Source: Buxus sempervirens
Lineage: Eukaryota > Streptophyta > Magnoliopsida > Buxales > Buxaceae
Assembly (NCBI GenBank): GCA_947561395.2
Contig: OX387183.1
Coordinates: 57,829,915 to 57,893,914, forward strand
Length of the DNA stretch: 64,000 bases
Reading direction: 5' to 3'
Shown here in pieces: positions 6,966 to 62,930 of the stretch. The notes under the pieces are model-generated. The model searched no databases. It saw nothing but the letters and a program-made list of their open reading frames with translations, and was not told the DNA's origin. Numbering within the stretch: position 1 is the stretch's first letter; every line of letters begins with the position of its first letter. The position numbers were made by a program, and so were the translations under genes.

Positions 6966-8996
6966 TCATCGACCTTGGGAGAGGAGAGATTCTGCAACTG
7001 ATGATGATCGAGTCACCTCATGCTCCAGAGAAAATGGATATGAAATGGCAAAATTATCGAAGCCTTCAAGGTTCCCAAAGGTCAGACCACAGTCACCCAT
7101 GGCAAGCGATGCCAACTCCGATACAGGTAGATCACCATTCAGAGACTGCACCACTTGTCGCATGCTTGGCCTGCCTGCAGGTAGAGAATGAGAGCAAAGC
7201 AACCCCAGCTTCAACACTAACTCCATTTCCTCCCTCACATAGTCTGTGCCCAGATTGGGGTCGCTGGTCTCCAAGATTGCCCCTCTTCTCCAACATGTGA
7301 ACACCCAATCCACCAAATTCAGATCCTCAGCCCCTGACGCCGGCGGCCATATAGGTCTCCTTCCGCAAGCAACCTCCAGCAGAAATGCCCCAAACGCAAA
7401 CACATCAGTGCTGGTTGTTGCCTTGCCTGTTCTCGTTAGCTCCGGTGCCAGATAACCCAGTGTTCCGACCACATGAGTTGTCTGAGGATTGCTTCCGTGA
7501 TCATATAATTTTGCCAGGCCAAAATCTCCCAATCTACCATTTAGCTCACCATCTAACAACACATTACTGGACTTCACATCTCTGTGAATCACAACTTGTT
7601 CCCATTCTTCGTGAAGATAAAGTAGCCCCGACGCTACGCCTTTGATGATTCGAAATCTGTGGCTCCAAGTCAATCTGACTTTTGGTTGATCAAATAGGAA
7701 TTTGTCTAGGCTTTTATTGGGCATGAAGTCATACACCAAAAGAAGCTCTCTTTTACGTCGACAATAGCCTAGAAGTCGTACCAAGTTCCGGTGCCGGAGC
7801 CGGCCAACGCTCGCAATCTCTGCCACAAACTCCTTGATTCCTTGCCTCGAGTCATGTGAAACTCTCTTCACTGCAACTTCAATTTTGGAAGTGGGTAGTT
7901 TACCTCTATAAACCCTACCAAACCCTCCAATTCCGAGGAGTTCCTTTTCCCTGAATCCGTTGGTTGCAATATAGAGATCTTTATATTTGTACCTGTGAGA
8001 CCCATAGACTAGCTCCCAATCTTCAAGAACTTCTGCAAACTTCCTCTTCCTTCTTACCATATAAATTATGCCGAAGATGGCCGTGAGCACCAGAGCTGTA
8101 ATTATTATCGGCATCCCAGTTGTCATAATCTTAGATTTCTTTTTAGGCCCTATCCGAGGAATAAGCTTAGGAAGCTGTGAGGTATCCAATGGTTGAGCTT
8201 GCCCATTCATCTTGAAACTCCATCCAAGAAGGTAGTGAGATGCTAGGACATTACCAGTGGACGAGGAGAAGCCCACATACATGAATTCGAAGAAGATTGT
8301 GGAGAGATCGGACGACAAAGACAAGAGCGGAATATGGGGTTTAGGCACCTTAACTGGAGCTAATGTCACATTAAGTTGCTTATGTACACCGTCGTAATCT
8401 ATCCAGACTTGCATTGGCAGCCCACCTATGAGGCTTAGATTCTTGAATTCACTGTTGTTACCAGTAAAATAACCAGCCGAAGCTGAATTTTCCGACTTTA
8501 GGCCATTAATATCTATTCCAACATGGTTATCATCTATGTCAACGAATTCCTGGCTTTGGATTGTATCAATCTCAATAGCAACAATATGATTGGACGAATC
8601 GCCATTGTTGGACTGATTGAATACGCCAAGGTATTGGCTTGGTAGAGCTCCTCCTGGGAGTCCTAATGACGGTGAAATGACAAAGGATATTCCATGACCG
8701 CCTAGGCCTTGAAATTTGGTGACGATTGCGAAGACAAAAGTAGTAGAGAAGGAGAAGGCATTACCTTTGGACGAGTTCTTGAATGGAACCGGATGGGAGT
8801 AGAAGGCATGGCCCTTCGCTTGCGTGGTCTCGTTGGTTAGCATGAGGAGACCATTGTTTGTGATATCGGCTATGCCATCCAGGCTCAGGTTGGCAACTTG
8901 GAGGCCGCTATAGATAAAATCCACATCTTCGGAGGCTGAAAACCTCAGGCGGAGGAGGAGGTGGAGAAAAAACACCACCAACTTGGAGATCAACAT
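6966..8996 (-). CDS. L-type lectin receptor kinase A (LecRK-IV type)
   Basis: A single-exon 676-residue plasma-membrane receptor kinase. Residues 1-22 form a signal peptide; 23-263 a legume-lectin domain with the EIDT and DDNHVGID strands that carry metal-binding acids in this fold; 291-314 a membrane helix followed by the basic stop RRKRK; about 350-620 the kinase. Visible kinase landmarks are the glycine loop GIGGFGRV (355-362), Lys377 in VAVKR, HRD 471-473, DFG 491-493 and APE 517-519, so it should be an active RD Ser/Thr kinase. The lectin part would sense an extracellular ligand, not identifiable here. The ATG is the first methionine before the signal peptide and matches the paralogs. 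Length is normal for the family. It differs from its paralogs in small ways, such as RRKRE and a Trp in RRPIWPP. Confidence 0.95.
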   Translation of the reverse strand: MLISKLVVFFLHLLLRLRFSASEDVDFIYSGLQVANLSLDGIADITNNGLLMLTNETTQAKGHAFYSHPVPFKNSSKGNAFSFSTTFVFAIVTKFQGLGGHGISFVISPSLGLPGGALPSQYLGVFNQSNNGDSSNHIVAIEIDTIQSQEFVDIDDNHVGIDINGLKSENSASAGYFTGNNSEFKNLSLIGGLPMQVWIDYDGVHKQLNVTLAPVKVPKPHIPLLSLSSDLSTIFFEFMYVGFSSSTGNVLASHYLLGWSFKMNGQAQPLDTSQLPKLIPRIGPKKKSKIMTTGMPIIITALVLTAIFGIIYMVRRKRKFAEVLEDWELVYGSHRYKYKDLYIATNGFREKELLGIGGFGRVYRGKLPTSKIEVAVKRVSHDSRQGIKEFVAEIASVGRLRHRNLVRLLGYCRRKRELLLVYDFMPNKSLDKFLFDQPKVRLTWSHRFRIIKGVASGLLYLHEEWEQVVIHRDVKSSNVLLDGELNGRLGDFGLAKLYDHGSNPQTTHVVGTLGYLAPELTRTGKATTSTDVFAFGAFLLEVACGRRPIWPPASGAEDLNLVDWVFTCWRRGAILETSDPNLGTDYVREEMELVLKLGLLCSHSLPAGRPSMRQVVQSLNGDLPVSELASLAMGDCGLTFGNLEGFDNFAISYPFSLEHEVTRSSSVAESLLSQGR

Positions 8997-9046
8997 GACA
9001 AAACGTACAAGAATTTCGAGTGCTGTGACCTCTTCATTACTTGTCT

Positions 9047-9052
9047 CTTATA
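9047..9052 (-). promoter_or_regulatory. Likely TATA box of LecRK-A
   Basis: On the minus strand CCTTTATAAGAGAC lies about 50 nt upstream of the start codon. The same core is kept at about the same distance upstream of B, D and E. The transcription start is not known, so this rests on position and conservation. Confidence 0.5.
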
Positions 9053-12180: not shown

Positions 12181-12939
12181 TGATCAGAACCAAACGAGAA
12201 GATTGAAAATTAAATAAAAGTCTTCCGTGAATACGCGCGTCTAAATTGAAAAGTCTTTGCTGATGTAATATTGTGTTGACTGGTGCACACAGACAAGTAA
12301 AGTTTTCTCATCGATTGTAGCATGAATGGAAGCTTCTATTTCTTGCTATATGCTTGGCACATCGTCCACAGATCTCTGCAGGGAGGACTGAGTGCATGTT
12401 GATCTTTCTCTTTAGCAATTCAACGCTGTCTGCTATATATTTTTTTTGATCCACTGTAGAGCAATACAAGGAGTTAATATAGGCTTGCTACAATTCAAGG
12501 CTTGATCTCTTCGGCCAAGTTTAAGTAGCTCAACAGGATTCAGCTCCATCACTACAAAAGAAAGCGGATTAGGTGGCGGTCTTTGTAAGACCTTTAGCAG
12601 CGGTCTTTTAAAGGCCGCCCCTTTCTCTTACAGTCTCTTTCCTCTCTCTCCCTTTGTGAATCTGTTCATTTCCCTCAGTCTTTCTCTCTCTTCCGTCCGT
12701 GGAATTTCTCTAATCTCTCTTCCTACTTTTTATGTGACTTCAAATGGATGACAAAGAGCACACCAGCAATCTCTTATCCGCACCAAGCCTTTGCCACTTC
12801 TTCTTCTGATCGTTACCGATCAAGGTTTCTACGACAATGGCCGCAGATTGAATGAACGAGATTCTGATGACGTGGAGCTCTCCTCGAGAAAAGGTAATTT
12901 CCCTATCCTCATCATCCACTCTGTCATTAATTAATTTTT

Positions 12940-13640
12940 GGGAAATTTACACTAACACCTCCCGAGGTTTGGGAAAGTGTCACGGACACCCCTTGTGGTT
13001 CAGAAGCGATCACTTACTACCCCCGTAGTTTGGAAAAGCGTCCGTTACACCCCCTGCCGTTACTTTGGTCGCAAACGGCATTGGCGATTTTTCTAAAATG
13101 GCAAAAATACCCTTGTTTATAACGCTCTTTTCTTCTCTTCGTTTGCCTTTCTCCAAGCGGGAGATTGAAATGCCCTAATCAGTGATCACCTTCTTCGTTC
13201 GTTCAACCTTCTCCAAGAGAGAAATCGAAATCCCTAATTGCCAGGAAGCTTTGATCGCTAATCGAAATCCCTAATTGAATGTCCTGATGCCCTAATCGCT
13301 TAGTGTTCCTTCTCCTTCGCATCCCCTTCGAGAAGAAACCAAAGGAGATTGCGTTCGCTCCATCCAGAACGAAGCCTCTCTCTCTCTCTATCTGTTTTTC
13401 ACTCCAGAAAGCTTGCTCGCTCTCTCTCTGGTCCTCTCTCCGCGAGGTTCACTCCAGGAAGTGCTCTTCGACGACTCATCTCATCGCAGGTAACAATGAA
13501 ATTTGTTTTTCGTCTTCTTTTCCATCTAATTCTTACCATGGAAACGATCGATCATATAAACCATCCACATTTTTTGTTTTTCGTCTTCTTTTCTGTCTTT
13601 TGTTTTGGGGATTGGGTTGTTGGAGAACTGTTTATGTCTT
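12940..13640 (+). repeat. Left terminal inverted repeat of the Mutator-like element
   Basis: It matches the complement of 23655-24440 nearly base for base over its outer part, with small indels in the inner part. It includes a CT-rich stretch and a good splice donor (CATCGCAG|GTAACAATG, near 13490), so it probably acts as promoter and first non-coding exon for the plus-strand gene. The short open frames within it are not conserved as protein. Confidence 0.85.
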
Positions 13641-14029
13641 CGTGGGTTGATTCCAGAATTTAAGGATTTCCATTTGTTTGTTTTATTGACAAATTTGCTT
13701 GAAAATTTTTCATTTTTGAAATGTCATTATAAACTTTTGGCAAGGTTAATGATTTAGATTTAGATTTAACTGGATATGTGCATTGTGAAGCTATTTCGGA
13801 TTAAGTTCATTTTCATCTTGTTTGTTCAGCAATGGCATGAAAAAATGACTAGAGAACAGCTCTTACTGAGCTATTTTGCATTATGAAGCTCTTTCCCAAG
13901 TATTCTAATTGTAATATGACTTTATAAAAAATTGCATAAAAAAGGGCTAAAGTTGAATTCTTAATTTCCCCAGGGGAAAACATATATTATAACTATGCTT
14001 TATTGGACTATTTGGATTTGCAAATGTAG

Positions 14030-14149
14030 GGAGGTATTGAAGATGGTGAAGAACCAAAAGATGCTGCCGTCAGAGAACTACGGGAAGAAACTGGGGTAGT
14101 TTCTGCTGAAATTATTGCAGAGGTAGTTTCTGCTGAAATTATTGCAGAG
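14030..14149 (+). pseudogene. Captured exon of a Nudix hydrolase gene
   Basis: After a good acceptor (CAAATGTAG) the frame reads GGIEDGEEPKD followed by RELREETG, a perfect Nudix box of pattern GX5EX7REUXEEXGU, the catalytic metal-binding helix of these pyrophosphohydrolases. The wording is closest to plant diadenosine-polyphosphate hydrolases of the NUDX25/26/27 type, from memory. The end holds a 27-bp in-frame direct duplication (VVSAEIIAE twice), then a donor GAG|GTTAGT. The rest of the Nudix domain is not seen, so this is a one-exon host gene fragment carried by the Mutator-like element, with intron-like flanks on both sides. Confidence 0.75.
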
Positions 14150-15277
14150 GTTAGTCCAGGAAAAAATGATTTTTTTACAGTGTTCTAATTCTCCTTTCCT
14201 TAGGCCCTTTTATGCTTACCTAAAATCCTGGCATGTGAACGCACACGCGCATCCCTCATTGCAAAAAGAAAAAGAAAAGGCTGCAAATTGTTGATGTGTC
14301 CAATTTCCTGCAATCATCTATCCCAACAAAGAAGAAAAGTGAAAATATAAGTATCTAGAATTCACCCAATGGAAGGCATTTATTTGCTTCAGTCAATACT
14401 TTTAAGGTTTTTTCTAGGTAAGGGATGAAAGGCAATGATACCCTGATAGCTGTGTGTTTTCTAGATCATAAGTCGCATATGGGGGAAGTTGCTGGATACA
14501 TGTTGGGATTAAACTTGTGTAAGAAATGGTTACAAACTCTATTTCAAATTATAGTGCAGACTACAGAGTGCAAAGACAACACTTGAAAAGTTTCTATTCA
14601 AGCATATCTTTGACAAATTCTTCTCATAGATCTCAAGAAGGAAGCATTTAAAATGGTTAGAAGTGGTTTATGATGCAGATATGTTTGTTTTTGTACAATT
14701 CAGCCTTGGCAAAGAGGCTTTTATTTGGTGTTATATATGTTTGAACATGTTGGATAATTTTACAACTTTGTCTTAATATTTCCTTTCATATGTTTGAACT
14801 TGTTATTATTGCTAACATAAATGTAGTATAGGAGCTAAGGGCTTATATAAGTTAACTAAATTTTGAGTGTTTGAGAGAAATGCAGCTTTAGTTATATAAT
14901 GATTTCAAAGGTAGATGAAATTAAGTTGCCTTGTTGTGCACTTCCTGGTAAATCTGATGGATGAAATTAAGGGCTAAGGCCATGAGTGTCTTCATGTTTG
15001 ATACAATATCACAGGCTTGACTTCATGATCTGTGACTTGATGTCAACATAAGTAGGCATAATGTTAGGGATTATCTGCTAAACTTAGGAACCAAATAGGT
15101 GAGAACTCAAACCTGTACCCCAACATGGTAGCAAAGTTTAGTGCCTCAATTTTCAAAGTTTATTGCTATTAGTCCTTATTTGTCCGGACTTTTGCTGTTG
15201 GCTGTCATGTGATATGGTGTGATGTGTAGCTAATTTCATCTTGTTCAATTTGTTAGGCGTAGTTTCTTCTGAACAAG

Positions 15278-18200
15278 ATGCATACACTTAAAGTTCATCA
15301 CTCAAGAGGCGTTGATTACATTGATAATGTGGATGAAGACAGATATAGTTATCTTGATTTGGCGGATGATGCCATGAATGTAGCTAAGGTTGATGTTGGT
15401 AATGCTTTCACCATCAAGTATCGTGCTCCTAGTTCACAAGATTTACACGTTATTGATGGTGATACAATATTAATGAAGGTTTTGAGCTCTATAGCAATGT
15501 AAATGAGATCAACTTGGTCGTGGAGGAAGAGCCTGCAGTTCTAATATCTCAATGTACGCAAGAGGAAGCGGCTACTTCAGGTGGAAGAAGAAGTGAGGAA
15601 CAAGAATTAATAGATGATGATGATTGGGTAGAGGAGGAGGTTATAATAAGTGAAGATGAAGATGAAGATGAAGATGAGTTAAGTAATGAGGGAGAAGAAG
15701 AAGGTGAAGAAGTGTTGAATGACACACGCGTACCACGAGAACATGCTGAAGTAGGTTTTGAATATGAAGAAGATAATGGAAACCAACTCTCTGATTATGA
15801 ATCCGATCCGAACTACCAAAGTTTAGTTGACTCAGATGAAGAACATGTTGGGGATGGGAGTTTTGATTTTGATATGGAACATGGAGGAGCCTAAACTTGA
15901 GAAAGGTATGCTATTTCCTAGCATCAATGATTTCAGAAAAGCCCTAGCTGAGTTTGCGATTAGAGAAGGATTCAACATAAAGAGAATGAAGAATGAGCGA
16001 ACTCGGGTCACAATTGGGTGTGCTAATGCGGATTGTAGGTGGAGACTACATGCATCACTGAGACCTGATGGGATGACTTTCATGATCAAGACAATTCAGC
16101 CAGAACATAATTGTACTCGTGTACACAAGAATATTGAAGCAAACTCTAGATGGATATCGGATAAGATTATTCCACAACTTCGTGCAAATCCAAAGTTGCC
16201 TATTTCATCTATTAGAGAGATCATCCATTCTCAGTATGGTATTGAGGCCAGTGGTATGCAGTTAAGGAGGGCTAGGAGGAAGGCAATTGAAGACGTAGAG
16301 GGAACGCATGGACAGGCGTATGGGATGCTATGGAGATATTCTGAAGTTGTTAGAGCTACCAACCCAGGGAGTTTGGTAAAGATTGAGTTAGAGCGGTTGG
16401 GTCCCTCTTCAACTCCCAGGTTCAAGAGATACTTCATTAGCTTTAATGCAATGAAGATTGGATTCATTCAAGGATGTCGACCATTTATTGGACTTGATGG
16501 TTGTCACTTGAAGGGTCCATTTGGAGGAGTATTGTTAGCTGCAATAGCATTAGATGGGAATGGTAGTTTGTTTCCTTTGGCTGTTGCAGTGGTTGAGGCA
16601 GAAACACAGTATAGTTGGTCCTTTTTCTTACAACACTTATACATGATTCTTGGAAGTGTGGATCAACCATGGACTTTCATGTCAGATAGACAGAAGGTAT
16701 TTATTAATGTTTAACTTTTAAGTCATTCATTTGCTAGATTAGACAGAAGGTATTTAATTTGCTATAATTCGTAACTTTATTTTATTTTACACTTTATAGG
16801 GTATTATAAAGGCAATTGGAGACATCTTCCCATATGCTACCTAGCGTTATTGTGCAAGACATGTTTATAGCAACTTCAAGACAGTTCACAAGGGTGTTTT
16901 ATTGAAGAATTTATTCTGGACAGCAGCTAGAGCCTATCATGTATTTGACTTCGAGGATGCAATGGAGTGGATCAAGAATGCATCACCTGAGGCATATGAT
17001 TGGCTGAAGGAAATCCCTCCATCTACTTGGTCAAGACACGTGTAGACACCTGATTTTTGCACCCCCAAAATAAAGAAAAATGAAAAGTTAAACTAAAAGT
17101 CAAACCCTGAGGGGGTCAAAAATTGACTTTTTGATTCAATAGAATTTGGCCATCAAACTTCATCTCATTGAAAAGAGCATTTCGACACGGTTCCAACGCA
17201 ACCAAGTTTGCCAGAATCGGAGTCCGGATGAGGAAGTTATGAGCCGGTCAAACTTTTGGGGGAGCGAAAGTTGACTTTTTGCTCGACCCCAATTCAACTG
17301 CCCAATTTGATCCCAGTGGATAGTGTGTTCCGAGCTGATTCCAACGACACCAAATTTGCTGAAATCGGACATCAGACGGAAAAGTTATGGGCAGTTGAAG
17401 TTTCAAGAAAGCTGCCCATGTGGCAAAACAGCAGCAAAAAGCAGAATAAATGAATTAAATAAATAAAATAATCATTTAATAGAAATATCTTTGTTTTTTA
17501 ATAATATTTTAATAAAAGAATCTCGTTTTTATAATAAAATAATAAAAAAATCGGATAAAAATCTTTAAATAAATCAAATTTAATAAAGCATTTGAAATCC
17601 AACATTTTAAAAACGTGCTGGACCGTATTTGAAGTACGGACGAGGCATGCCCGTATTTGAAATACGGGCACGCTTCTAGAAGGGGACGCGTGTCGCTGTA
17701 CGGCGAGACACGCGTCCCGTACGGCCGAATCTGCGATAATTGCAAATATTCGTTTTTCGCCCGTACTTGAAGTACGGGCAAGGCACGCCCGTACTTGAAG
17801 TACGGGCAAGGCATGCCCGTAGTTCAAATACGGGCACGGGAATTTTGCCTATAAATAGAGAGGCCACCCCCCTTCATTTGGACAAGCCCTCTCTCCTGGC
17901 CATAACCCCTGCCCTCCTGAAGCCACCCACGGCCGAACCCTGCCATCATGCCACCACTCCACCACCCTAAATATTTTTAATGCCCAAATTGCCCCTATGT
18001 CCCAAAACCATGCTCAAACACCCATAACTTTGCCTAAACTTTGACCTTTCATCTTCTTAGATTAAGGAATCTAACCAAACCCTTTACAAACCCAACTTGA
18101 GGATCTTGGGAGGACGCGGAAGCGCTGCCAAACTCACCGGAGAAATCATATCTAGCAAAAAAAGAACCACATTGTAAGTATATTGGATTTTATAATGCTC

Positions 18201-20220
18201 TCATTTTCATTTCCTTTTCCAAGGTCTCCTTTAAATCCTCTTGATGTTATTGACTCAACTGCTGTTTTGAGCCCCATGAGGAGATGATACCAAAGAATTG
18301 GTCATTACAAGAACGGAAGAAAAGAAGTGTCTAAAGAATGCTTTAATTAATTAAACAAATAACTTTTCTTTTTAAGTTTTTGAACATGGAAGGATTGAAC
18401 CCTTCTTGAAGTTAAATCAGTACCCTGTAATTTCCCACTTTCCCTATCCAAAAGATGATCATGGATCACCCGAAAGATGCCGGCCTTCATGTTAAAAGAG
18501 GAAGAAAGAAGAAGAAGGCCTTTTAGGCCAAAAGAGGAAAGGAAAGGACTTTGAAGAATTCGGAGTTCCAGCTGAAGTTATCAGAACACCTGAGAAGGCC
18601 ACGGGACTGATACCCAGCAGAATCGGCAGCAAAAATGCAAAACAAGCTGCACCCGTAAACTCAGAGCGGTCCAGGCGGGACCGTGTTTGCTTCACGGGCA
18701 GGTGGGCCCGGATTTTATCCACGGGCAAAGGCTGCCCGTATAACATATACGGGCAGATGTAAAAATAATGTAAAAAACTCAATTTCCAGCCCGGTTGGGC
18801 ATGAGCTGACCTGAACCGGCTTGAACCAACTTTTTGGACATTTTGGGCTATCTTAAGCCCATGTTTGGACCGTGGGCCCTAATGGGCCCACCAATACCCT
18901 CCTTTGGGCCCACTTGAGTGGCCCACATTTTGACTGACCTATACCAGGCCTGTTTTCAACAAACAGGCCCAGGCCCCTTGACCCTTGGCTAATGGGCCTG
19001 TACCAAGCCCATTAAGCCCAAATAAATTGTAAATAAATAAACTTTAAATAACCAAATGGGTTACCCAATAATCCAACTGGGCCCAAGGCCCAACCATGGT
19101 AGCCCGCGGGTCTTCCAACGGGACCCGGGTCCGACCCACTTCACTTAGATAAATAAAAAAGATAAAATCAAAATAAAAGGGACCCACACCTTCAGAGGGT
19201 CCCACCAGACCAAATAAAGCAGCATGCTGGCCTAGGAAGGGTGAACTTGACTCAAAAACCAGAGAGACCCGAGGGACCCGTCAAAACCGATGGGGCGGGC
19301 CGGGGTGTCTTAGGGCTTCCCCGGACGTAACCGAGGACTTAGTTAGAACTCTGAAAAGCCGCAGACTAGACTTAGACCCGGATAGGACAAACACCGTGTC
19401 TGCCTGCACCTCTCAGGCAGTGGCGACTCCGAAAGTCCCGAGGCACGCACGAACATAACGTGCGCCCCGTGTGCGATCTAGATTTAGGTGCGCACAACAC
19501 GCTTTTGATGTGCGCGTGAAGAATGATCACATTACAAATAACTTGATAGAGTCTTTCAATCAGTGGGTTGGTGAACATAGAGAGAAGTCTATCATATCTT
19601 TAGTGGATGGTATAAGGTCGAGGTGGATGGTAAAAATTCAAAAACGACACCAAACTGCATTGACATGGACTACATTGGTAACCCCCAAAGTTTGTGGCAT
19701 ATTGGATGCAAGAATCAGGGCTTCAAGGAACTGTCGTGTATTGTTTGCCGGTCAAGATGAATATGAAGTAAAGGAGGATGAAACAAGCAGATATATTGTA
19801 AAGCTCGGTCCACGGACATGTACTTGCAAGGTGTGGGATTTGTCAGGGATACCATGTAAGCATGCAGTACAATGCATAAGATGGAGAAGGGAGAATTTAG
19901 AGAACTATTGTGACCAATGTTATAGGGTTGACACATACTTGAGGGCATATGCTGAAATGATTCATCCAATTCCGGATCAAAAGATGTGGCCAACAGTTGA
20001 GGTGGAGCCATTGATGCCTCCTTGTCTTCGTCGTTTGACTGGAAGACCGAAGAAAAATAGAAGGAGAGAGGCAGATGAACCATGCACCACGGGTGAAGTA
20101 CGTAGATCAAGTACACTACGGTGTTGTATCTGTAAACAATTTGGTCACAACAAAAGGACATGCCAGCGTGGCCCGACGAGGTGTAGTAGTAAGGCGTCTG
20201 GGTCTAGACGAGAGGTATGA
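15278..20220 (+). pseudogene. mudrA-type Mutator transposase, decayed and interrupted
   Basis: The N-terminal domain starts at 15278 (MHTLKVHHS), followed by a very acidic linker (15514-15890, Asp/Glu runs), a MuDR-type zinc DNA-binding domain (CANADCRW ... HNC, 15990-16120) and the DDE core beginning GLDGCHLKG at about 16490. An intron near 16696-16799 (donor CAGAAG|GTATTT, acceptor TTATAG) separates the next exon, 16800-17040. After the LTR insertion the frame resumes at 19501 with a SWIM zinc finger (CTCKVW ... CKHA, about 19820) and a CX2CX4HX4C zinc knuckle (CCICKQFGHNKRTC, about 20120). Two frameshifts (near 15480 and 15890), an in-frame stop near 16842 and the insertion mean that no functional transposase can be made. 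Confidence 0.9.
17041..19496 (+). mobile_element. Solo LTR (2.46 kb), probably Ty3/Gypsy, inside the transposase gene
   Basis: It begins TGTAGACACC, ends GTGCGCACA, and is flanked by identical 5-bp copies ACACG (17036-17040 and 19497-19501). There is one LTR and no internal region. A promoter-like CTATAAATAGAG lies near 17850. The part 17620-17850 holds several self-complementary copies of CCCGTACTTGAAGTACGGGC. Near its end it has GTGGCGACTCC, a motif also near the end of the LTR at 56342-58727, so both belong to one family or close relatives. The perfect target duplication suggests a fairly young insertion. The Tat-like assignment is from memory. Confidence 0.85.
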
Positions 20221-21606
20221 CCACCTAACCAATTAATGTTTTGTATTTCTTTCTTTTGAATTCATAATAAGTTTGATTATAAATTTCATTTATTTAATGC
20301 AGGGGAATAGTTCACGTCAACGTGAACAAGAAGAACATCAACGTGGCAACACGTCAAGCAACAGGTAATTGGTTGAAACTAATTTACAAGGTCTCAGTTT
20401 TTGCTTTGTAAAAATTTATACTTGTTACTTATTAGTTTTCTTATTGTGACAATAGGTGATGGGGAGAACAGGAGAACAGGGTCTCAGTATTTTATACTTG
20501 TTGCAAGGATTTGTTCTTGTTGGATTTTTACTTCATTTGTGGCCACCTCTTTCCTGTTAGTGTGGAGCTTTTGATCAATGGGTTGTTATAGGCTCCTTGT
20601 GTTTCCATGTTTCCTTTTGCCTTCTTTTTATATGTGGGCTTCCTTCTTACTCTGCTTAAATGACTACTAACAATTGGATGTCAAAGTAATTTTGTATTGT
20701 GGTAGGCATTTGATCGTGTTTTGATGCTTAGGGAAGCAAAACATAAGTTGCATGTAGTTTTATTTCAATGTTTTTTTCAGCTTCTTATTACAATCTAAAT
20801 TTTTTTCGTTGATTCTCTTGCCTCTCATAATCTAGGTGGAATCCGTGTATGCTGCAAATTAATGTGGCAATGTGACACGAGCAGTCTTAGTAGTCACGTG
20901 GAATCCATGTAATGTGGTCTGATTCTGACAAGCATAACTGTATGCTCATGTTTCCATTGTTGGTGATTTTGGCTCATTGGAAAATTTCTTCAAGACCTGC
21001 AACGGTTATATTCACCCATTTTATTGGCATTTTAATGATTTGGTAGTCAAAATACTGTTGGCTGTCATGTGAACTTATTTTGTTTCAATGAAAATTAGAC
21101 TTTTCTCTTGAGTTACAGGAAATTTAGATGAGAAAGATTTGATTCGTTGCAGGAGTTCATATTATGAGATGGATGTTTTCAACAATTGGCAAATTATGAT
21201 GCATCGTTTATGCAATTAGTTGTGACTGATTCTTTTCAAACAAGAGTCTTGACTGTTTCAATTTCAGTGGATGTCCAGATATTCTCCAATAAAGGTTGTG
21301 GTTATTAACTCATCTTTAATGCAACGAATGGTTTTGAATTCCTCAGCCTTGTGCTACCAAGTTATGAAAATTCCAAGACTCACGAACCTTCATACATAAA
21401 GTATGAAGGACAAAACTCAAGGACAAGTTTTGGACGAACCTTCATACATAATGCTTTTGTTGGTTATTCTCCAATAAAGTATGTTTTGGACGAACCTTCA
21501 TACATAACAAAACTCAAGGACAAGTTTCTCCTACAAGGGGAATCCAATGCATAATGCTTTTGGTCGCAAACCCAATTCCACCATCTTTTTGAAATATCCT
21601 GCAGCA
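20221..21606 (+). other. 3' region of the transposase gene and unexplained element sequence
   Basis: About 20300-20365 may be a last small exon after an acceptor (TTTAATGCAG); beyond it lies 3' UTR-like T-rich sequence. Between 21270 and 21545 the words GACGAACCTTCATACATAA and AAAACTCAAGGACAAG and a CTCCAATAAAG word recur, giving a short imperfect repeat. No coding region is supported. Confidence 0.5.
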
Positions 21607-21804
21607 TCATCGGTCGATTAAATGATTATAGGACAAAGCGTCTGCACGGCTTCTCTTCTCATCCATCCTCCTGAAAACCTCCATTGCTTCTTTAAATTTC
21701 CCTTGAGCACAAAGACCATCCACAATAACATTAAAGCTCCCGAGATTTACAGTAAGACGTCTTGGAGGACTGTGCTCCTCCATCATTCTATCAAACAGCC
21801 GCAT
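21607..21804 (-). pseudogene. Captured PPR-protein fragment (P-class)
   Basis: The frame reads SFNVIVDGLCAQGKFKEA followed by MEVFRRMDEKRSRADALSY and NHLID, which fits the 35-residue pentatricopeptide repeat (helix A ... GLC..GK..EA ... F..M). About two repeats are present and a stop follows. An acceptor-like TTGATTAG precedes it at about 21808. PPR proteins act in organelle RNA processing; this piece is far too short and is best seen as a host gene fragment moved by the Mutator-like element. Confidence 0.7.
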
Positions 21805-22175
21805 TACCTAATCAATGGGAGCATCTAGCTAGACAAATACTGACAAGTGTTGTAATCTACAAACAGGAAAACTTGACAGTTACCTCTTTAAATTGACAGC
21901 AAATAAGAACATCCCCGCTCCATTAATATATAAATTGAAAAGAGTGTGTTATGATGCATATATAAGGGATTGATTCCATGTACGAACTAATGCCAATTAA
22001 CTAAATCTATAACAAGCTTTTAAGCAATACCCTATCATATTTAGAAACACATATAGTACCCCATGTTCTATCATATTTAGAAATGGGTGAAATTAAGGAC
22101 AAGTCAAATATCCGAAAATAGTCTCTACAAGCATGTTTAGGTAATAGAAAACAAATAAATCCACAAACATCTTAC

Positions 22176-22868
22176 TCATCGCTCTCTTCTCTTTCCATTT
22201 AATGATAGTCCGTCTAATTTTTCTAAAATAAGTCTACCTAAGTTTGCAACTCTTTCTGAGGCTTCAACCTCCACTTCAATAATTCTTCTTATTGACTTAA
22301 CACGGTCAGTGGAAGAAGGATTGGTGGAAGAAGTGGAGGCATCTTCAACAGTTGAGGTGGAGGCATCTTCACCGGAAGAAGTGGAGGCATCTTCGACATT
22401 TTCATCGACCCAGCAAAAATAACCGCACCCACGATCTTCTCGGTCTTCAGCCTATCAATTAGCCAGTTAAGGTTTAGCATGATATATACAATTCTTACTG
22501 AAAAACAAGAAAAGTAATAAAGACAAACCTTTGATGCAGGACACACGTAAAAGCGTCGTCCAAATGAACCCGGTTGCTTCGAGGTCAAGACTTTGCATAT
22601 ACCTCGATTGCAAGGGCATATTTTGCATTCATCAGCCCACAAAAAGAACCCACAGTCATTATGTTTCTGCATCAATAAGAAAATAATCTTTGTGTTTTTT
22701 AGTACATTTATAAAGACTTCTTTTGTTTTCATAATAGATTGGAATAGTTTAGAAGTTGATACTTACCCAACATGGGCATCGGTAGAATTCTCTACTAGGA
22801 TTCTTTTGGGTGTGCGATTTTAGAATTAAACATTTTCCTTGTGCACATGGGCATTGTCTTGCAATCAT
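22176..22868 (-). CDS. Two-finger GRF-type zinc-finger gene carried by the Mutator-like element
   Basis: Three exons on the minus strand. Exon 1 (22868-22767, ATG start) gives CPCAQGKC ... NPSREFYRCP and ends in phase at donor GTAAGT. Exon 2 (22666-22529), after acceptor ATGCAG, gives DCGFFLWADEC, completing finger one, then CPCNRGIC ... FGRRFYVCP. Exon 3 (about 22444-22176) gives RGCGYFCWVDE, completing finger two, then three EDAST(S) repeats, a short charged helix and a TGA. Both fingers keep the C, C, R-F-Y, C-P and FFxW pattern of zf-GRF, a domain known to bind single-stranded nucleic acid in APE2, NEIL3 and TOP3A. The exon 2-3 junction is out of phase with the simplest acceptor, so there is either a slightly different splice or a one-base decay. 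The right inverted repeat would act as its promoter and leader. Confidence 0.65.
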
Positions 22869-23363
22869 TTTTCCTATCAAAGATGGAAAAACTCAATTCC
22901 AATTACAACTGAACATAATTATAACTCAATTCCAATTAAAACTGAACATAATAAAGTAAAACAAAAGGTGGCCTAATGACTCATTCTTCCAACCAGAAAT
23001 TTGACCCAACATTAATGGTGTTTTGCAGACTGAAAATTATTAGTTTTTCTGATGTTTGACTCATGACAGTATGTGTGTATCTATCAACCCTTCTCCTAGT
23101 CATCTTGGAATCTGGAATGGGCTACTCTGATCTCAAGTTGAACTAAATGGTGTTTTGATGACTGAAAACATATTAGTCGTTTTGTTGTTTGGTTTCTGTG
23201 TATATAAATCCAAATTGTTTGTTGCTTACACATATTAGCTGGAATTACTAAGTTTAGAAGCAGGATGGAATTTCTCTTTTTTTTTGTTTTCTAGTGGACA
23301 CCAAAGAAAACACAGCAAGCAAAGATTTAGCCTCATAACACTAAGTTTAAAAGTTAAATCCAT

Positions 23364-23597
23364 TCAACATTTAGCCTCTACGACTACCAAAAGAAAAGAA
23401 GTATATAAGCATATCAACAAACAATTCGAGTTTATGCTTCTACATAGAACAAATTCATAGAACAAATTCTTTGACTCTTCAATCATCCCAAACCGTAATA
23501 AACCTGTGATCATAGTATTATATAAAACCAAGTTTCTCTCCAACATTTCATCGAAAACCTGATTCGCATCGCAAATTAATCCGGCTTTTGTGTACAT
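23364..23597 (-). pseudogene. Captured PPR-protein fragment (PLS-class)
   Basis: The frame reads MYTKAGLICDANQVFDEM then LERNLVLYNTMITGLLR and FGMIEESKNLFYE, which matches the P-L-S type pentatricopeptide wording (DANQVFDEM, LYNTMITGLL) of organelle RNA-editing factors. A stop lies just upstream in frame, and homology fades after NLFYE, so it is a single captured exon piece next to the right inverted repeat. It differs in class from the fragment at 21607, so two source genes are likely. Confidence 0.7.
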
Positions 23598-23654
23598 ATG
23601 CTTCTATGTAAATATCGACCAAAGAACAACCCACGCAGACATATGCTTCAAACC

Positions 23655-24440
23655 CAAATTTCATTACTACCAACAACCCAATCCCCATAAACAGTTCTCC
23701 AAATCAGATATTTCCAACAACCCAATCCCCAAAACAAAAGATAGAAAAGAAGACGAAAAACAAAAAACGTGGATGGTTTATATGATCGATCGTTTCCATG
23801 GTAAGAAGTAGATGGAAAAGAAGACGAAAAACAAATTTCATTGTTACCTGCGATGAGATGAGTCGTCGAAGAGCGCTTCCTGGAGTGAACCTCGCGGAGA
23901 GAGGACCAGAGAGAGAGTGAGCAAGCTTTCTGGAGTGAAAAACAGATAGAGAGAGAGAGGCTTCGTCCTGGATGGAGCAAACGCAATCTCCTTTGGTTTC
24001 TTCTCGAAGGGGATGCGAAGGAGAAGGAACACTAAGCGATTAGGGCATCAGGACATTCGATTAGGGATTTCGATTAGGGATTTCGACTAGCGATCAGGAC
24101 ATTCGATTAGGGATTTCGATTAGCGATCAGAGCTTCCTGGCGATTAGGGATTTCGATTTCTCTCTTGGAGAAGGTTGAACGAACGAAGAAGGTGATCACT
24201 GATTAGGGCATTTCAATCTCTCGCTTGGAGAAAGGCAAACGAAGAGAAGAAAAGAGCGTTATAAACAAGGGTATTTTCGCCATTTTAGAAAAATCGCCAA
24301 CGCCGTTTGCGACCAAAGTAACGGCAGGGGGTGTAACGGACGCTTTTCCAAACTACGGGGTAGTAAGTGATCGCTTTTGAACCACAGGGGGTGTCCGTGA
24401 CACTTTCCCAAACCTCGGGGGGTGTTAGTGTAAATTTCCC
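23655..24440 (-). repeat. Right terminal inverted repeat of the Mutator-like element
   Basis: It is the inverted partner of 12940-13640. It has the same CT-rich leader and splice donor in minus orientation (near 23845), so it could drive the minus-strand GRF gene. It differs from the left arm by small indels, such as the extra TAGGGATTTCGATT repeats near 24060-24130 and a partial duplication near 23690-23740. Confidence 0.85.
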
Positions 24441-24517
24441 ATTAATTTATTACGTAGTCGTTGAGGAAACACGTTCTGAAACGTATGAGGATTCTTGGAA
24501 GCATCACTTACGGAATG

Positions 24518-29058: not shown

Positions 29059-31083
29059 TCATCGACCTTGGGAGAGGAACGATTCTGCAACTGATGATGA
29101 TCGATTCACCTCATGCTCCAGAGAAAACGGATACGACATGGCGAAACTATCAAAGCCTTCATGGTTCCCAAAGGTCAGACCACAGTCACCCATGGCAAGC
29201 GATGCCAACTCCGGTACGGGTAGATCTCCGTTCAGAGATTGCACCACTTGTCGCATGCTTGGCCTGCCTGCGGGTAGAGAATGAGAGCAAAGCAACCCCA
29301 GCTTCAACACTAACTCCATTTCCTCCCTCACATAGTCTGTGCCAAGATTGGGGTCGCTGGTCTCCAGGATTGCTCCTCTTTTCCAACATGTGAACACCCA
29401 ATCCACCAAATTCTGATCCTCAGCCCCTGAAGCTGGCGGCCCTATAGGTCTCCTTCCGCAAGCAACCTCCAGCAGAAATGCCCCAAACGCAAACACATCA
29501 GTGCTGGTTGTTGCCTTGCCCGTTCTCGTTAGCTCCGGTGCCAGATAACCCAGTGTTCCGACCACATGAGTTGTCTGAGGATTGCTTCCGTGATCATATA
29601 ATTTTGCCATGCCAAAATCTCCCAATCTACCATTTAGCTCACCATCTAACAACACATTACTGGACTTCACATCTCTGTGAATCACAACTTGTTCCCATTC
29701 TTCGTGAAGATAAAGCAGCCCCGACGCTACGCCTTTGATGATTGGAAATCTTTGGCTCCAAGTCAATCTGACTTTTGGTTGATCAAATAGGAATTTGTCT
29801 AGGCTTTTATTGGGCATGAAGTCATACACCAAAAGAAGCTCTCCTTTCCGTCGACAATAGCCTAGAAGTCGTACCAAGTTCCGGTGCCGGAGCCTGCCAA
29901 CGCTCGCAATCTCTGCCACAAACTCCTTGATTCCTTGCCTCGAGTCATGTGAAACTCTCTTCACTGCAACTTCAATTTTGGAAGTGGGTAGTTTACCTCT
30001 ATAAACCCGACCAAACCCTCCAATTCCGAGGAGTTCCTTTTCCCTGAATCCGTTGGTTGCGATATAGAGATCTTTATATTTGTACCTGTGAGACCCATAT
30101 ACTAACTCCCAATCTTCCAGCACTTCTGCAAACTTCCTCTTCCTTCTTACCATATAAATTATGCCGGAGATGGCCGTGAGCACCAGAGCTGTAATTATTA
30201 TCGGCATCCCAGTGGTCATAATCTTAGATTTCTTTTTAGGCCCTATACGAGGAAGCTTAGGAAGCTGTGAGGGATCCAGTGGTTGAGCTTGCCCATTCAT
30301 CTTGAAACTCCATCCAAGAAGGTAGTGAGATGCGATGACATTACCAGTGGACGAGGAGAAGCCCACATACATGAAGTCGGAGAAGATTGTGGAGAGATCG
30401 GACATCAAAGACAAGAGCGGAATATGGGGTTTAGGCACCTTAACTGGAGCTAATGTCACATTAAGTTGCTTATGTACACCGTCGTAATCTATCCAGACTT
30501 GCATTGGCAGCCCACCTATGAGGCTTAGATTCTTGAATTCACCGTTGTTACCAGTAAAATAACCAGCCGAAGCTGATTTTTCCGACTTTAGGCCATTAAT
30601 ATCGATTCCAACATGGTTATCATCTATGTCACCGAATTCTTGGCTTTGGATTGTATCAATCTCAATAGCAACAATATGATTGGACGGATCGCCATTGTTG
30701 GACCGATTGAATATGCCAAGGTATTGGCTTGGTAGAACTCCAGGGAGTCCTAATGCTGGCGAAATGACAAAGGCAATTCCATGACCGCCTAGGCCTGGAA
30801 ACTTGGTGACGATTGCGAAGACAAAAGTAGTAGAGAAGGAGAAGGCATTACCATTGGACGAGTTCTTGAATGGAACCGGATGAGAGTAGAAGGCATGGCC
30901 CTTCTGTTGCATGGTCTCGTTTGTTAGCATGAGGAGACCATTGTTTGTGATATATGCTAAGCCATCCAGGCTCAGGTTAGCAACTTGGAAGCCATTATAG
31001 ATAAAACCCACATCTTCGGAGGCTGTAAACCTCAAGCGGAGGAGGAGGTGGAGAAAAAACGCCACCAACTTGGAGATCAACAT
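29059..31083 (-). CDS. L-type lectin receptor kinase B (LecRK-IV type)
   Basis: A 674-residue single-exon receptor kinase, almost identical to A. Order: signal peptide (1-22), legume-lectin domain (23-262, EIDT and DDNHVGID kept), membrane helix around residues 289-312, kinase around 348-618. The glycine loop, VAVK lysine, HRD and APE are intact. The activation segment reads DFGMA where the paralogs have DFGLA, a mild change. It lacks two residues found in A (GLPGVLPS and KLPRIG). The ATG is fixed by the signal peptide and by the paralogs; a TATA-like core lies about 50 nt upstream. It should sit in the plasma membrane and bind an extracellular ligand through the lectin domain, which cannot be named here. 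Confidence 0.95.
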   Translation of the reverse strand: MLISKLVAFFLHLLLRLRFTASEDVGFIYNGFQVANLSLDGLAYITNNGLLMLTNETMQQKGHAFYSHPVPFKNSSNGNAFSFSTTFVFAIVTKFPGLGGHGIAFVISPALGLPGVLPSQYLGIFNRSNNGDPSNHIVAIEIDTIQSQEFGDIDDNHVGIDINGLKSEKSASAGYFTGNNGEFKNLSLIGGLPMQVWIDYDGVHKQLNVTLAPVKVPKPHIPLLSLMSDLSTIFSDFMYVGFSSSTGNVIASHYLLGWSFKMNGQAQPLDPSQLPKLPRIGPKKKSKIMTTGMPIIITALVLTAISGIIYMVRRKRKFAEVLEDWELVYGSHRYKYKDLYIATNGFREKELLGIGGFGRVYRGKLPTSKIEVAVKRVSHDSRQGIKEFVAEIASVGRLRHRNLVRLLGYCRRKGELLLVYDFMPNKSLDKFLFDQPKVRLTWSQRFPIIKGVASGLLYLHEEWEQVVIHRDVKSSNVLLDGELNGRLGDFGMAKLYDHGSNPQTTHVVGTLGYLAPELTRTGKATTSTDVFAFGAFLLEVACGRRPIGPPASGAEDQNLVDWVFTCWKRGAILETSDPNLGTDYVREEMELVLKLGLLCSHSLPAGRPSMRQVVQSLNGDLPVPELASLAMGDCGLTFGNHEGFDSFAMSYPFSLEHEVNRSSSVAESFLSQGR

Positions 31084-31133
31084 GACAAAGCTTACAAGAC
31101 TTTCGAGTGCAGTGACCTCTTCACCACTTCCAT

Positions 31134-31139
31134 CTTATA
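31134..31139 (-). promoter_or_regulatory. Likely TATA box of LecRK-B
   Basis: Minus-strand CCTTTATAAGATGG lies about 51 nt before the ATG, matching the position in A, D and E. Confidence 0.5.
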
Positions 31140-36475: not shown

Positions 36476-37480
36476 TTACGTGATTTCATATAAAGGTTTC
36501 TTTATATAATCATCGACCTTGGGAGACGAAACGGCGAAATCATCAAAAGCTTCAACGTTCCCAAAGGTTAGACCACAGTCACCCATAGCAAGCGATGCCA
36601 ACTCCGGTACGGGTAGATCTTCGTTTAGATACTGCACCACTTGTCGCATGCTTGGCCTGCCTACGGGCAGAGAATGAGAGCAAAGCAATCCCAGCTTCAA
36701 CACTAACTCCATTTCCTCCCTCACATAGTCTGTGCTCAGGTTGGGGTCGCTGGTCTCCAGGATTGCCCCTCTTTTCCAACATGTGAACACCCAATCCACC
36801 AAATTCAGATCCTCAGCCCCTGACGCTAGCGGCCCTATCGGTCTCCTTCCGCAAGCAACCTCCAGCAGAAATACCCCAAACGCAAACACATCAGTGCTGG
36901 TTGTTGCCTTGCCCGTTCTCGTTAGCTCCGGTGCCAGATAACCCAATGTTCTGACCACATCAGTTGTCTGAGGATTGCTTCCGTGATCATATAATTTTGC
37001 CAGGCCAAAATCTCCCAATCTACCGTTTAGCTCACCATCTAACAACACATTACTGGACTTCACATCTCTATGAATCACAACCTGTTCCCATTCTTTGTGT
37101 AGATAAAAGAGCCCCGACGCTACGCCTTTGATGATTCGAAATCTGTGGCTCCAAGTCAATCTGACTTTTGGTTGATCAAATAGGAATTTGTCTAGGCTTT
37201 TATTGGGCATGAATTCATACACCAAAAGAAGCTCTCCTTTACGTCGACAATAGCCTAGAAGTCGTACCAAGTTCCGGTGCCGGACCCGGCCAACGCTCAC
37301 AATCTCTGCCACAAACTCGTTGATTCCTTGCCTCGAGTCATGTGAAACCCTCTTCACTGCAACTTCAATTTTGGAAGTGGGTAGTTTACCTCTATATACC
37401 CTACCAAACCCTCCAATTCCGAGGAGTTCTTTTTCCTTGAATCCGTTGGTTGAAACATACAAACATCCATCAATTAACAT
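36476..37480 (-). pseudogene. LecRK-C: kinase-only lectin receptor kinase fragment with a foreign start
   Basis: A 334-codon open frame whose residues from about 10 on match the kinase domain of [12 protein letters not shown] loop, VAVKR lysine, [15 protein letters not shown] and APE are all present. The signal peptide, lectin domain and membrane helix are gone. Homology to the paralogs begins at STNGF, and the codons before it (MLIDGCLY...) come from adjoining transposon-like sequence with a true ATG. The C-terminal tail is also altered: a deletion of about 60 bp removes the last LecRK residues and the frame runs on into the 3' flank. VGTLGY is VRTLGY here. It could be a dead fragment or a soluble cytoplasmic kinase if transcribed; the sequence shows no promoter for it. 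Confidence 0.8.
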
Positions 37481-39508
37481 AAATTGGATGTTTGTGAATA
37501 TCTGAAAAATCCATCAATTAATATCATGTTTAGGAACATACAAACATCCAATTTATGTTAATTTAGATTCATAACCATATGTCAAATTTAGTTATTCATA
37601 ATATTATACAAGCACACATGTCCAGTATGCATGAGTGTGTGTTAGATAGCAAAATTTTACCAAAATGGAAAGATTGTACAGGAGGAGAGAAATGAAATAT
37701 AAGCCCAAACCATTTTACAACATCCAAAACACTTATAGAGAGTCAAAAAGAAGAAAATCCTACCTAAATATGTCATCCATACAAGCATAATTCACCGAAA
37801 ATGAATTTCCAAACACCCTAGATCTGATGTATACCTCCACTCTCACTTCCAACCCTTGTTGGTGTACATACTTGACTTATCAAAAAAAATTTACAAAACA
37901 CAACTCATCAGCTAGTCCAATTGGATTGAGCTAGAATCTCAGGTCAATGATATATTCTCAGAACGATTAATGTGAGGTACCATATCCAAATTGAACATGA
38001 CAAGTAAGATAATTGAACTCTCAAAAATTAAAACAAGAGTGATATCCATTTTGAAGTGCCTAATCATCCTCTAGTTTGCATTTGGCTTGTCATAGTCCCA
38101 TAATAAAGGATGTAGCTTAAAAAGGCATAGGCCTTATTAGGCAAGAGTGAACTATTGATGAAAAATAAATAATTTCAAATTGAAACAACTTAAATTTCCC
38201 ATAATTAATAGACATTGTAGATAGAAAATACTACAGAAGTTTCAATATGCAACAGGAAACAGAGATGTTCACAAATTCACATTATCGACACTGTATGTAT
38301 GCAAACAAAATAGATAATCATATACTCACCGGGACAAGAAGACAATATGGACCAAGTGGAAATAGTTGTGAGAGAAAATCAATGAATCTTCCCAATAAAG
38401 CATGGCAATCTTCTGACATACTAATTTCAGTCTGAATATGACATGGGTCCATAACAAACTTCTCTTGCCTGACAGGGGTTGTGTCCTGATCTTCATCAAA
38501 TTCTGGTGAGCATTGATTTAAATTGTGTTCAAACTTACGACCAGATACTTCACCAAGATTTAACTGATCATGGTCACTAAATGCTTCATCATGACCATAC
38601 ACCAATCTTAAGACAAAAGAAGACACGGACACTTTAGTAGCACTGATGGAAGGGAATTCATGCAAATTTTTACTCCATTTTGATATACCAATAGACAAGC
38701 CCACTTCATGAAGCATAAGAAGCTGTTCAGTGTTGCGTTCACATAAAAGAGCTGATGGAGCATCTTCAATCATGGATTAATAACAAACCCTAACAAATCA
38801 AAGATCTAAAGAAACAAAAATGAGAAATCGAAAAACAAAATAAAATCCTAAATCTAAACAACTGTAACAATGATCTGAAAAGGAAACTGAAAAACCTAGA
38901 AAATCATAACGACGATCACAACAACTCAACCACATAAGATGAAAAACAAATCAAATAGACAAACCTTTGTCTTCTAGAAACTTTAGAAAATCACAAGCTC
39001 CTTCCGCTTCAGAAAATCGCCAAGCTCCTTTCACTTCAGAGGGATGCGAAAGCCCTAATCCGACAGAAAAAAAAAATTTACACATCTGAGGCACTTTTAT
39101 ATATTCCCGGTATATTTGAAAGAAAAAAGAAACCTACCGTCTTTCTTTCCTTCTCGGATTCACCAGCTTTCGTGACTGCAAGTTAGTCATCCGCGTAATA
39201 ATGATTTGTAAATTATTCTGTAACGGCATTTGATAGAAAAGTGCAATAATGATTTGTTTTATAGAGTTAAAAATTCCGTAACAAATTGTTTTATAGGGGC
39301 ATTTAAATATAAAATGCCTTAATAAATTATTTTAAAGCGGAATTCATTAGGAAAATGCCATAATAAATCATTTTATAGTGGCATTTTTCTAGGAAATGCC
39401 GTAATAAATTGTTTTATAGTGGCATTTTAAACAAAAATGCCGTATTAAGGCACTTTCATATAAATGCCCTTATATTAGTTTCGTTTTATCACCTTTTTTT
39501 TTGTAGTG
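37481..39508. mobile_element. CACTA-type remnant (right end) replacing the 5' part of LecRK-C
   Basis: The right end reads TTTTTTTTGTAGTG at 39508. Inside it, 39230-39480 carries repeated (A)AATGCC(G/A)TAATAAAT(T/C)(G/A)TTTTATAGTGGCATTTT words, typical CACTA subterminal repeats. A TTT triplet follows (39509-39511) and then GTAGTG, the stub of the other CACTA element also seen at 24820. The left end is missing. It carries the exon-like frame at 38318-38773. Confidence 0.65.
38318..38773 (-). pseudogene. Unrecognised 151-codon exon-like frame within the CACTA remnant
   Basis: An ATG-started frame (MIEDAPSALLCERN ...) of mixed composition ends at a consensus splice donor (CCCG|GTGAGTAT, near 38330), with AT-rich intron-like sequence beyond. 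A leader at 38780-39060 includes two near-repeats of AAAATC(A/G)C(C)AAGCTCCTTYC. I do not recognise the protein. It has an acidic middle (SPEFDEDQD) and a hydrophobic end (FIDFLSQLFPLGPYCLLVPV). It is most likely the first coding exon of a host gene captured by the CACTA element, or the stump of a resident gene. Confidence 0.5.
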
Positions 39509-48074: not shown

Positions 48075-48124
48075 GACAAAGCTTACAGGACTTTCGAGTG
48101 CAGTCACCTCTTCACTACTTCTCT

Positions 48125-48130
48125 CTTATA
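48125..48130 (-). promoter_or_regulatory. Likely TATA box of LecRK-D
   Basis: Minus-strand CCATTATAAGAGAG lies about 51 nt before the ATG; the core carries one base change relative to A, B and E. Confidence 0.45.
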
Positions 48131-52872: not shown

Positions 52873-52947
52873 GACAAAGCTTGCAAGACTTTCGAGTCGC
52901 AGTCACCTATTCACTACTTCCTTCTCCTATTCACTACTTCCTTCTCT

Positions 52948-62135: not shown

Positions 62136-62930
62136 ACAGGGCTTCCCTAAACTTCCCAGTTTAATGGCTTCTACGTACGGATACAGCCTTCTCTTCTCCT
62201 TGTAATATAAAGGACGAGGATGATGGTCCTGCTCACTCTGACATCTCAACCGTCAACGTGGCAAAACAAGCAGCAGGTTGCGTAACAGGACTACCAGCTA
62301 TATATGCAAGGGTCAAGGGGAATCGAAAATGAATTCAACGAAAGGGATGGCTCTAAAATGAGGTCGCGACTGAACGGAAGACTTGTCGTTCCGACTGATC
62401 AGGGTGACGGGCCTTATTGTCAATGCCCTGATGTCACAGGCAAATAACTTGCTGGTGCTTTGCCCATTACAGTGCCACGGTAGGCACCAATGCATGCACG
62501 AGTGCTAGTCGGAGATGGAGATAATTTTCGTTACGTGCCAAGCGCATGCTTTATGTGTACAACTACAAACCCTCATCCTCGGTAATGGTGCTGGCTGCAG
62601 AGTTCAGAAAATTAAAAAACACTTGCGATAACTGAACTACAGCACACAAAAATCAAACTCTATATGCTGTATTTTTCAGATGGGGAGCAAAAAAGCAGGG
62701 GAGACCGAGCAAATACATTCACCCTCCTTACATTTCAAAATCTGAACAAAATTAAAGCTATGCTTTGTCTTGTCGCTCTCTCAACTACTACAAAGACATG
62801 TTACCAAAAACAAAAATACCACTACAAAGACACCTGGACAATTTTACATCATTGATTTCTAACAACCATGGTAAAAGAGAGTAAGTAGAGCAGTTGAGAA
62901 AACACTGTGGAACAGTAACATATGCAGGGG
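62136..62930. other. Upstream region of LecRK-F
   Basis: It does not resemble the upstream segments of A-E. The minus strand has CCTTTATATTACAAGG about 70 nt from the ATG, a weak TATA candidate. No other genes. Confidence 0.5.

Follow-up and report, generated by a model that had tools for sequence, protein, structure and literature searches.

A tandem GRF zinc-finger gene convergent with the transposase gene of Mutator-like elements in Buxus sempervirens

In the genome of Buxus sempervirens, an 11.5-kb element at positions 12940-24440 of the 64,000-nt stretch analysed here (hereafter the window) carries a plus-strand MuDR-type transposase gene and, facing it on the minus strand, a gene for a protein with two GRF zinc fingers. 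This locus raises the question of whether the second gene was picked up once by a single transposon or is a regular component of Mutator-like elements (MULEs). Searches of the 676.5-Mb genome and comparison of the sequences recovered suggest that the GRF gene is very probably an accessory gene of plant MULEs. For the full statement, that it is a conserved MULE accessory gene, moves between elements as an interchangeable cassette and helps with single-stranded DNA at element ends or cuts, we see the arguments as evenly balanced.

The element is confirmed as a MULE. Its transposase contains the Pfam domains DBD_Tnp_Mut (E 1.2e-16), MULE (E 6.4e-9) and SWIM (E 1.4e-8), the first two at 15827-16714 and the third in the C half (Table 1). 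Its terminal inverted repeats of ~0.7 kb, which start with GGGAAATTTACACTAACACC, align between 12928-13624 and 23713-24452 in four blocks with 94-98% complementarity. With the ends placed at 12940 and 24440, the flanks are ATTAATTTTT and ATTAATTTAT, a 10-bp duplication that has one mismatch and lies at an A/T-rich site, and that is weak evidence taken alone. Long inverted repeats and a target duplication of 8-11 bp are described for MULEs (PMC6446971).

The GRF gene of the window is open and encodes 171 amino acids. Both of its introns are in phase 0 with GT..AG ends, in keeping with the earlier claim that exons 1 and 2 join in phase, and each splits one finger between its FYxC and CGxFxW halves; a candidate 3' splice site lies five bases 5' of the start codon. 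Zn_ribbon_GRF is recognised by Pfam in two stretches of the protein (E 7.7e-20), which scores 71.2 bits for the GRF family (PF06839) against a curated cut-off of 25.9, compared with 90.1 and 58.1 bits for the GRF proteins of L040 and L043 (L numbers denote loci fetched from the genome). The closest solved structure is the tandem GRF of NEIL3 (7jl5, 7omk; E 7.6e-9, residues 18-97). Chance occurrence of the GRF motif was ruled out, its first half being found in none of 20 mononucleotide shuffles of the window.

Pfam, the repeat alignment and the gene model agree with the original prediction of a mudrA-type transposase facing a three-exon GRF gene between long inverted repeats. The transposase domains are present as predicted, but this copy is broken, which had gone unmentioned: relative to the sister copy L039, its coding sequence is short by 1 base and by 5 bases at two points, and it is interrupted by a TG..CA insertion of 2455 bp, which is accompanied by a duplication of 5 bp and resembles a solo long terminal repeat (LTR; Table 1). 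Two further small indels near 16707-16736 are probably intronic. Since the transposase is broken while the GRF gene is open, the GRF frame in this copy need not reflect the activity of the copy itself, and the evidence must come from the family.

Pairing of GRF genes with MULE transposases in the genome

The genome was searched with the transposase and the GRF gene as DNA and as protein, with the Pfam GRF model and with two further transposases. The merged lists are lower bounds, comprising at least 246 GRF places and at least 123 transposase places of the window type, 68 of a second DBD_Tnp_Mut type and 93 of a FAR1-domain type; members of one family do not count as independent cases. Of the 246 listed GRF places, 114 have a listed MULE transposase no more than 15 kb away, and the nearest transposase was convergent in all 114 cases (same-strand or divergent, 0). 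When the 246 GRF places were placed at random relative to the 191 transposase places of the window type and the second type, the mean numbers were 1.2 same-strand, 0.6 divergent and 0.6 convergent. A one-off capture is rejected by this genome-wide convergent pairing, which is far above that of random placement.

Seen from the transposases, the nearest GRF place is convergent and within 15 kb for 65 of the 123 listed places of the window type, 40 of 68 of the second type and 9 of 93 of the FAR1 type; the possibility raised with the original prediction, that related elements lack the GRF gene, is therefore not borne out, save for two elements that seem to be without one (see below). Seven of the nine FAR1-type pairs fall among the twelve listed places that are at least 92% identical to the query, and one of the 76 places of 70-75% identity is paired. 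A convergent two-finger GRF gene is present in the fetched lineages L039, L040, L042/L048, L043, L044 and L041/L050, and a one-finger gene in L046, so that the arrangement recurs with all three transposase types. The L048 transposase (DBD_Tnp_Mut, MULE and SWIM) is 28% identical to that of L039 over the C half, and the L050 transposase (FAR1, MULE and SWIM) 17%. No transposase was found in the 10 kb of L041, a FAR1 type being found in the adjoining stretch; in L049, a single 8-kb stretch holds a GRF gene, at bases 2-686, and convergent with it a transposase of the FAR1 type.

Listing by the Pfam model missed some of these genes. Among five stretches beside transposases with no listed GRF place (L043-L047), a GRF gene was then found in three; that of L043 is not among the places listed with the Pfam model, and such genes were recovered by reading frames, motif scan and protein search. 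In addition, some elements have spread recently with both genes open: nine scored places at 71% identity have stop-free N-half frames of 491-494 aa, all with a GRF place, and the inverted repeats of L040 (991 bp) are 99.9% identical.

Several observations weigh against a general association. No listed transposase lies within 15 kb of 132 of the 246 listed GRF places, some of which are host genes or remnants, and for one of the 123 listed window-type transposase places the nearest GRF gene within 15 kb is on the same strand. When the distance is extended to 25 and 50 kb, the listed GRF places with a convergent transposase number 123 and 128, and those with a same-strand one 2 and 5. No GRF gene was found in the 8 kb examined of each of the MULEs L045 and L047, and the L045 clade has three stop-free N-half frames; no transposase was found within 8 kb downstream of two L043-like GRF places (L051 and L052). 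The repeat of the window element itself was recognised in only 14 of 30 GRF loci of the family, with 1.5-kb flanks.

Selection on the GRF gene and its exchange between elements

The GRF gene is under purifying selection. The original prediction had proposed a dN/dS check across elements, which was made on 20 of 30 fetched copies of one family (family A); ten were dropped, nine for frameshift or damage and L036 for an exon 3 out of frame at the end used. With stop codons masked, the codon model gave a ratio of nonsynonymous to synonymous change (omega) of 0.358, with a log-likelihood of -2150.99 compared with -2182.24 at omega 1 (p 2.7e-15), and pairwise Ka/Ks was 0.24-0.28 in bins covering 183 of the 190 pairs. 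Outside this family, the GRF genes of L040 and L041 differ by Ka 0.071 and Ks 0.179, with an intron divergence of 0.175, and those of L043 and L044 by Ka 0.078 and Ks 0.140, with an intron divergence of 0.152; in both pairs Ks is near the intron divergence.

Not all of this speaks for strong constraint. Family A has a Ks two to three times as high as its intron divergence and a Ka/Kintron of 0.65-0.77, suggesting that constraint is weaker than Ka/Ks alone implies. The lengths of exons 1, 2 and 3 preserve the reading frame in 25, 26 and 26 of the 30 copies, but the phase of intron 2 is kept in 27 of 30 (that of intron 1 in 15), and frame-keeping therefore adds little support. Some fetched copies have damaged splice sites, intron 1 of L044 starting with CT and intron 2 of L041 ending with CAA instead of CAG. 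As a separate observation, intron 2 of the L040 and L041 GRF genes starts with GC and not GT, a donor of the GC-AG type.

The transposase and GRF genes have conflicting histories. The transposase C halves of L040 and L043 are 94% identical (Ks 0.148), compared with 27% for the GRF proteins, and in DNA the two match only across the transposase open reading frames (ORFs; 90.4%) and along the outermost ~90 bp of the repeats; at a neutral divergence of about 0.15 the remainder should still be alignable, and we infer that it has been replaced. The reverse is seen between L040 and L041, a FAR1-type MULE, which share 84% identity in the GRF protein and 88% in the DNA of the gene with its introns, with transposases 19% identical. 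Between L043 and L044, Ks is 0.14 for the GRF gene and 0.54 for the transposase C half (Fisher 1.8e-7, on rounded counts with the GRF count back-calculated). In approximately unbiased (AU) tests on six shared lineages, the transposase tree was rejected for the GRF gene (p 9.4e-6) and the GRF tree for the transposase (p 3.0e-4). GRF genes of the L043 type (exon 3 part 92-95% identical) lie beside 70-72% transposases at at least seven places, and Pfam-found GRF places lie beside 70-71% transposases at at least ten, L040 being the only one with its full sequence read. The recurrence of both combinations makes a local assembly error unlikely. In both pairs compared (L040/L041 and L043/L044), the cassette is alignable from the 3' splice site before the ATG to the stop codon. 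We regard exchange of this cassette between MULEs as likely.

The layout of the repeats suggests how exchanged cassettes may be expressed. As originally predicted, both repeats of the window element carry a splice-donor leader; it is identical in the two, ends TCGCAG/GTAACAAT and has a candidate donor in each (Table 1). For the window family and for L040, the sequence supports a leader within the inverted repeat that ends in a splice donor, and a GRF cassette that begins at an acceptor site just 5' of its ATG; the two are probably joined by splicing, and a new cassette could then plug into an element that provides a leader. We lean slightly towards a pool of such plug-in cassettes, swappable between MuDR-like and FAR1-domain MULEs, with the repeats supplying promoter, leader and donor. 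Against it, the scanned stretches of L043 and L044 yielded no leader donor of the expected kind, and L042 has no evident 3' splice site directly before its ATG. Moreover, no long inverted repeats were found in the L042/L048 stretches or in the L041/L050 stretches of the FAR1-type pairing, so that the borders of both types are provisional.

Features of the window element and its surroundings

The features of the window element are collected in Table 1. The two PPR fragments lie in an element that encodes a transposase, a Pack-MULE-like capture. Fragments of a protein kinase gene likewise lie between the transposase and the GRF gene of L043 (4591-5262, minus strand). In the L048-type MULE, an ORF with a plant mobile domain lies on the same strand as the transposase (L042, 7126-7764, minus strand) and is a second possible accessory gene. 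In the sister copy L039, inverted similarity between 113-153 and the facing end continues ~40 bp past the element end, as if the element were nested in another inverted repeat.

The window element is inserted between two members of a lectin receptor kinase gene array. Similar lectin receptor-like kinase genes lie on the minus strand at 6966-9047, 29059-31134, 36476-37513 (kinase part only), 46050-48125, 50851-52902 and 60108-62252, with Pfam checked on the first gene and the MULE between the first two.

Table 1 Features of the MULE in the window, with window coordinates
Feature	Position	Strand	Pfam match
Left target-site duplication, ATTAATTTTT	12930-12939		
Left terminal inverted repeat with leader; candidate splice donor at 13490	12940-13624	+	
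Transposase N half: acidic stretch (by eye), DBD_Tnp_Mut and MULE domains; frame broken near 15480 (1 base) and 15884 (5 bases) relative to L039	15463-16714	+	
TG..CA insertion of 2455 bp within the transposase gene, 5-bp duplication ACACG, solo-LTR-like; absent from sister copy L039	17042-19496		
Transposase C half with SWIM zinc finger; first 38 bases of the ORF are insertion sequence	19459-20220	+	
PPR gene fragment within the element	21613-21804	-	PPR_2, E 2.6e-10
GRF exon 3: remaining half of GRF 2, followed by a Ser/Thr-rich linker and the C-terminus; stop codon 22178-22176	22179-22451	-	
GRF exon 2: second half of GRF 1 and first half of GRF 2	22529-22666	-	
GRF coding exon 1: ATG 22868-22866; candidate 3' splice site AG 22875-22874	22767-22868	-	
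PPR gene fragment just internal to the right inverted repeat	23475-23588	-	PPR, E 1.3e-6
Right terminal inverted repeat with the same leader; candidate splice donor at 23847	23713-24440	-	
Right target-site duplication, ATTAATTTAT	24441-24450		

Origin and possible roles of the GRF protein

Maize MuDR has inverted repeats with promoters and a convergent gene layout. As in MuDR, whose second gene is transcribed oppositely to the transposase gene and is reported to be crucial for insertion (PMC9168764, PMC6446971), the second gene here is convergent with the transposase gene, but it encodes a GRF protein. The Abermu elements likewise carry a gene, ORFR, on the opposite strand between the transposase and the 3' repeat, which is described as poorly conserved between species and of unknown origin; in contrast to the GRF gene, no domain is named for ORFR in the available text of that paper, which describes no exchange between MULE types, and the one eudicot Abermu described there, from Sedum album, has no ORFR (PMC9168764). 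Second genes opposite the transposase are thus already known in MULEs (mudrB and Abermu ORFR), whereas a GRF accessory gene and its exchange between MULE types would be new; no paper naming GRF in a MULE was found in the open-licence PMC literature.

GRF fingers, such as those of APE2 and NEIL3, bind single-stranded DNA. For APE2, lack of the Zf-GRF domain may account for reduced nuclease activity (PMC10250235). The transposon GRF protein resembles NEIL3 in its two tandem fingers and differs from it in that no glycosylase family is listed by Pfam. By analogy with these proteins, it may bind single-stranded DNA at the element ends or the cut target and aid integration or end repair, and it would do for these MULEs what MURB reportedly does for maize MuDR. 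This DNA-end role is held tentatively, at a little short of even confidence. One feature sits oddly with a nuclear end-binding protein: at the C-terminus, the GRF proteins of L043, L044 and L046 have a hydrophobic tail that resembles a membrane segment, with a Kyte-Doolittle hydropathy over 17 residues of 2.45-3.04, compared with 0.75 for the window protein and -0.05 for that of L040.

The main rival to the DNA-end role is that the GRF protein is an anti-silencing factor, a counterpart of VANC in the VANDAL MULEs of Arabidopsis, which would target DNA or RNA intermediates of the element and relieve methylation. In VANDAL21/Hiun (VANA, VANB and VANC), the accessory genes are, as here, less conserved than the transposase, and VANC, a trans-acting accessory of another MULE group, is much less so (PMC5735166). 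For most pairs in the window clade the GRF proteins are less alike than the transposases, and an anti-silencing gene would profit from exchange among elements. However, VANC has DUF1985/DUF287 (PMC5735166), whereas Pfam lists GRF and neither of these in the three GRF proteins scanned, and we consider an anti-silencing role unlikely. The membrane-like tails fit neither this role nor the binding of DNA ends.

As for origin, the nearest relatives of the window GRF gene that were found lie in other MULE copies, contrary to the possibility, raised with the original prediction, that they would be ordinary host genes. The host genes L053, which we take to be TOP3A-like, and L054 share with the transposon gene two GRF fingers that are, in the parts read, split by introns at matching points, and differ from it in carrying a CCHC knuckle. 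Over the finger stretches read, they are 44-53% identical to the GRF types of the window, L040, L041 and L042, and only 22-32% identical to the L043 type. Given the same intron positions, these genes or their ancestors look like the ultimate source; the simplest origin is that tandem-GRF exons of the host were captured long ago, on one or perhaps several occasions. A rival reading, in which each MULE group captured a host tandem-GRF gene separately and the likeness of cassettes reflects one donor and not exchange, would agree with a weakly supported tree that pairs the window-type GRF with L054 and the L043 type with L053 (0.84 and 0.88). Against this, the GRF proteins of L040 and L041 are 84% identical over their whole length, with an intron divergence of 0.175, compared with 51-53% over the fingers for the closest host gene, which makes separate capture by each group improbable; independent capture may still account for the L043 type versus the rest. 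That the GRF gene is a functionless passenger, a captured host gene as in Pack-MULEs, would fit the captured PPR and protein kinase fragments in the window element and L043, the shared intron positions of the host CCHC and tandem-GRF genes and the exclusion of 10 of the 30 family copies from the codon model (nine for frameshift or damage), but it is already contradicted by the convergence of the nearest transposase in 114 of 114 listed pairs, the three transposase types and the omega of 0.36, and is very improbable.

The accessory genes of MULEs are poorly understood, and the ORFRs of grass elements are without an assigned function in the available account (PMC9168764); a tandem GRF domain, structurally characterised as in NEIL3, offers a concrete biochemical handle on accessory function. 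If exchange between MuDR-like and FAR1-type elements is true, the helper function would be generic, acting on something that every MULE shares in transposing (DNA ends, repair or silencing) and not on a particular transposase, and an accessory gene that is worn out or countered by the host could be replaced by one borrowed from another MULE. Moreover, since many GRF genes in the Buxus sempervirens genome are carried by transposons, genes annotated in plants as 'GRF-type zinc finger' may often be transposon genes.

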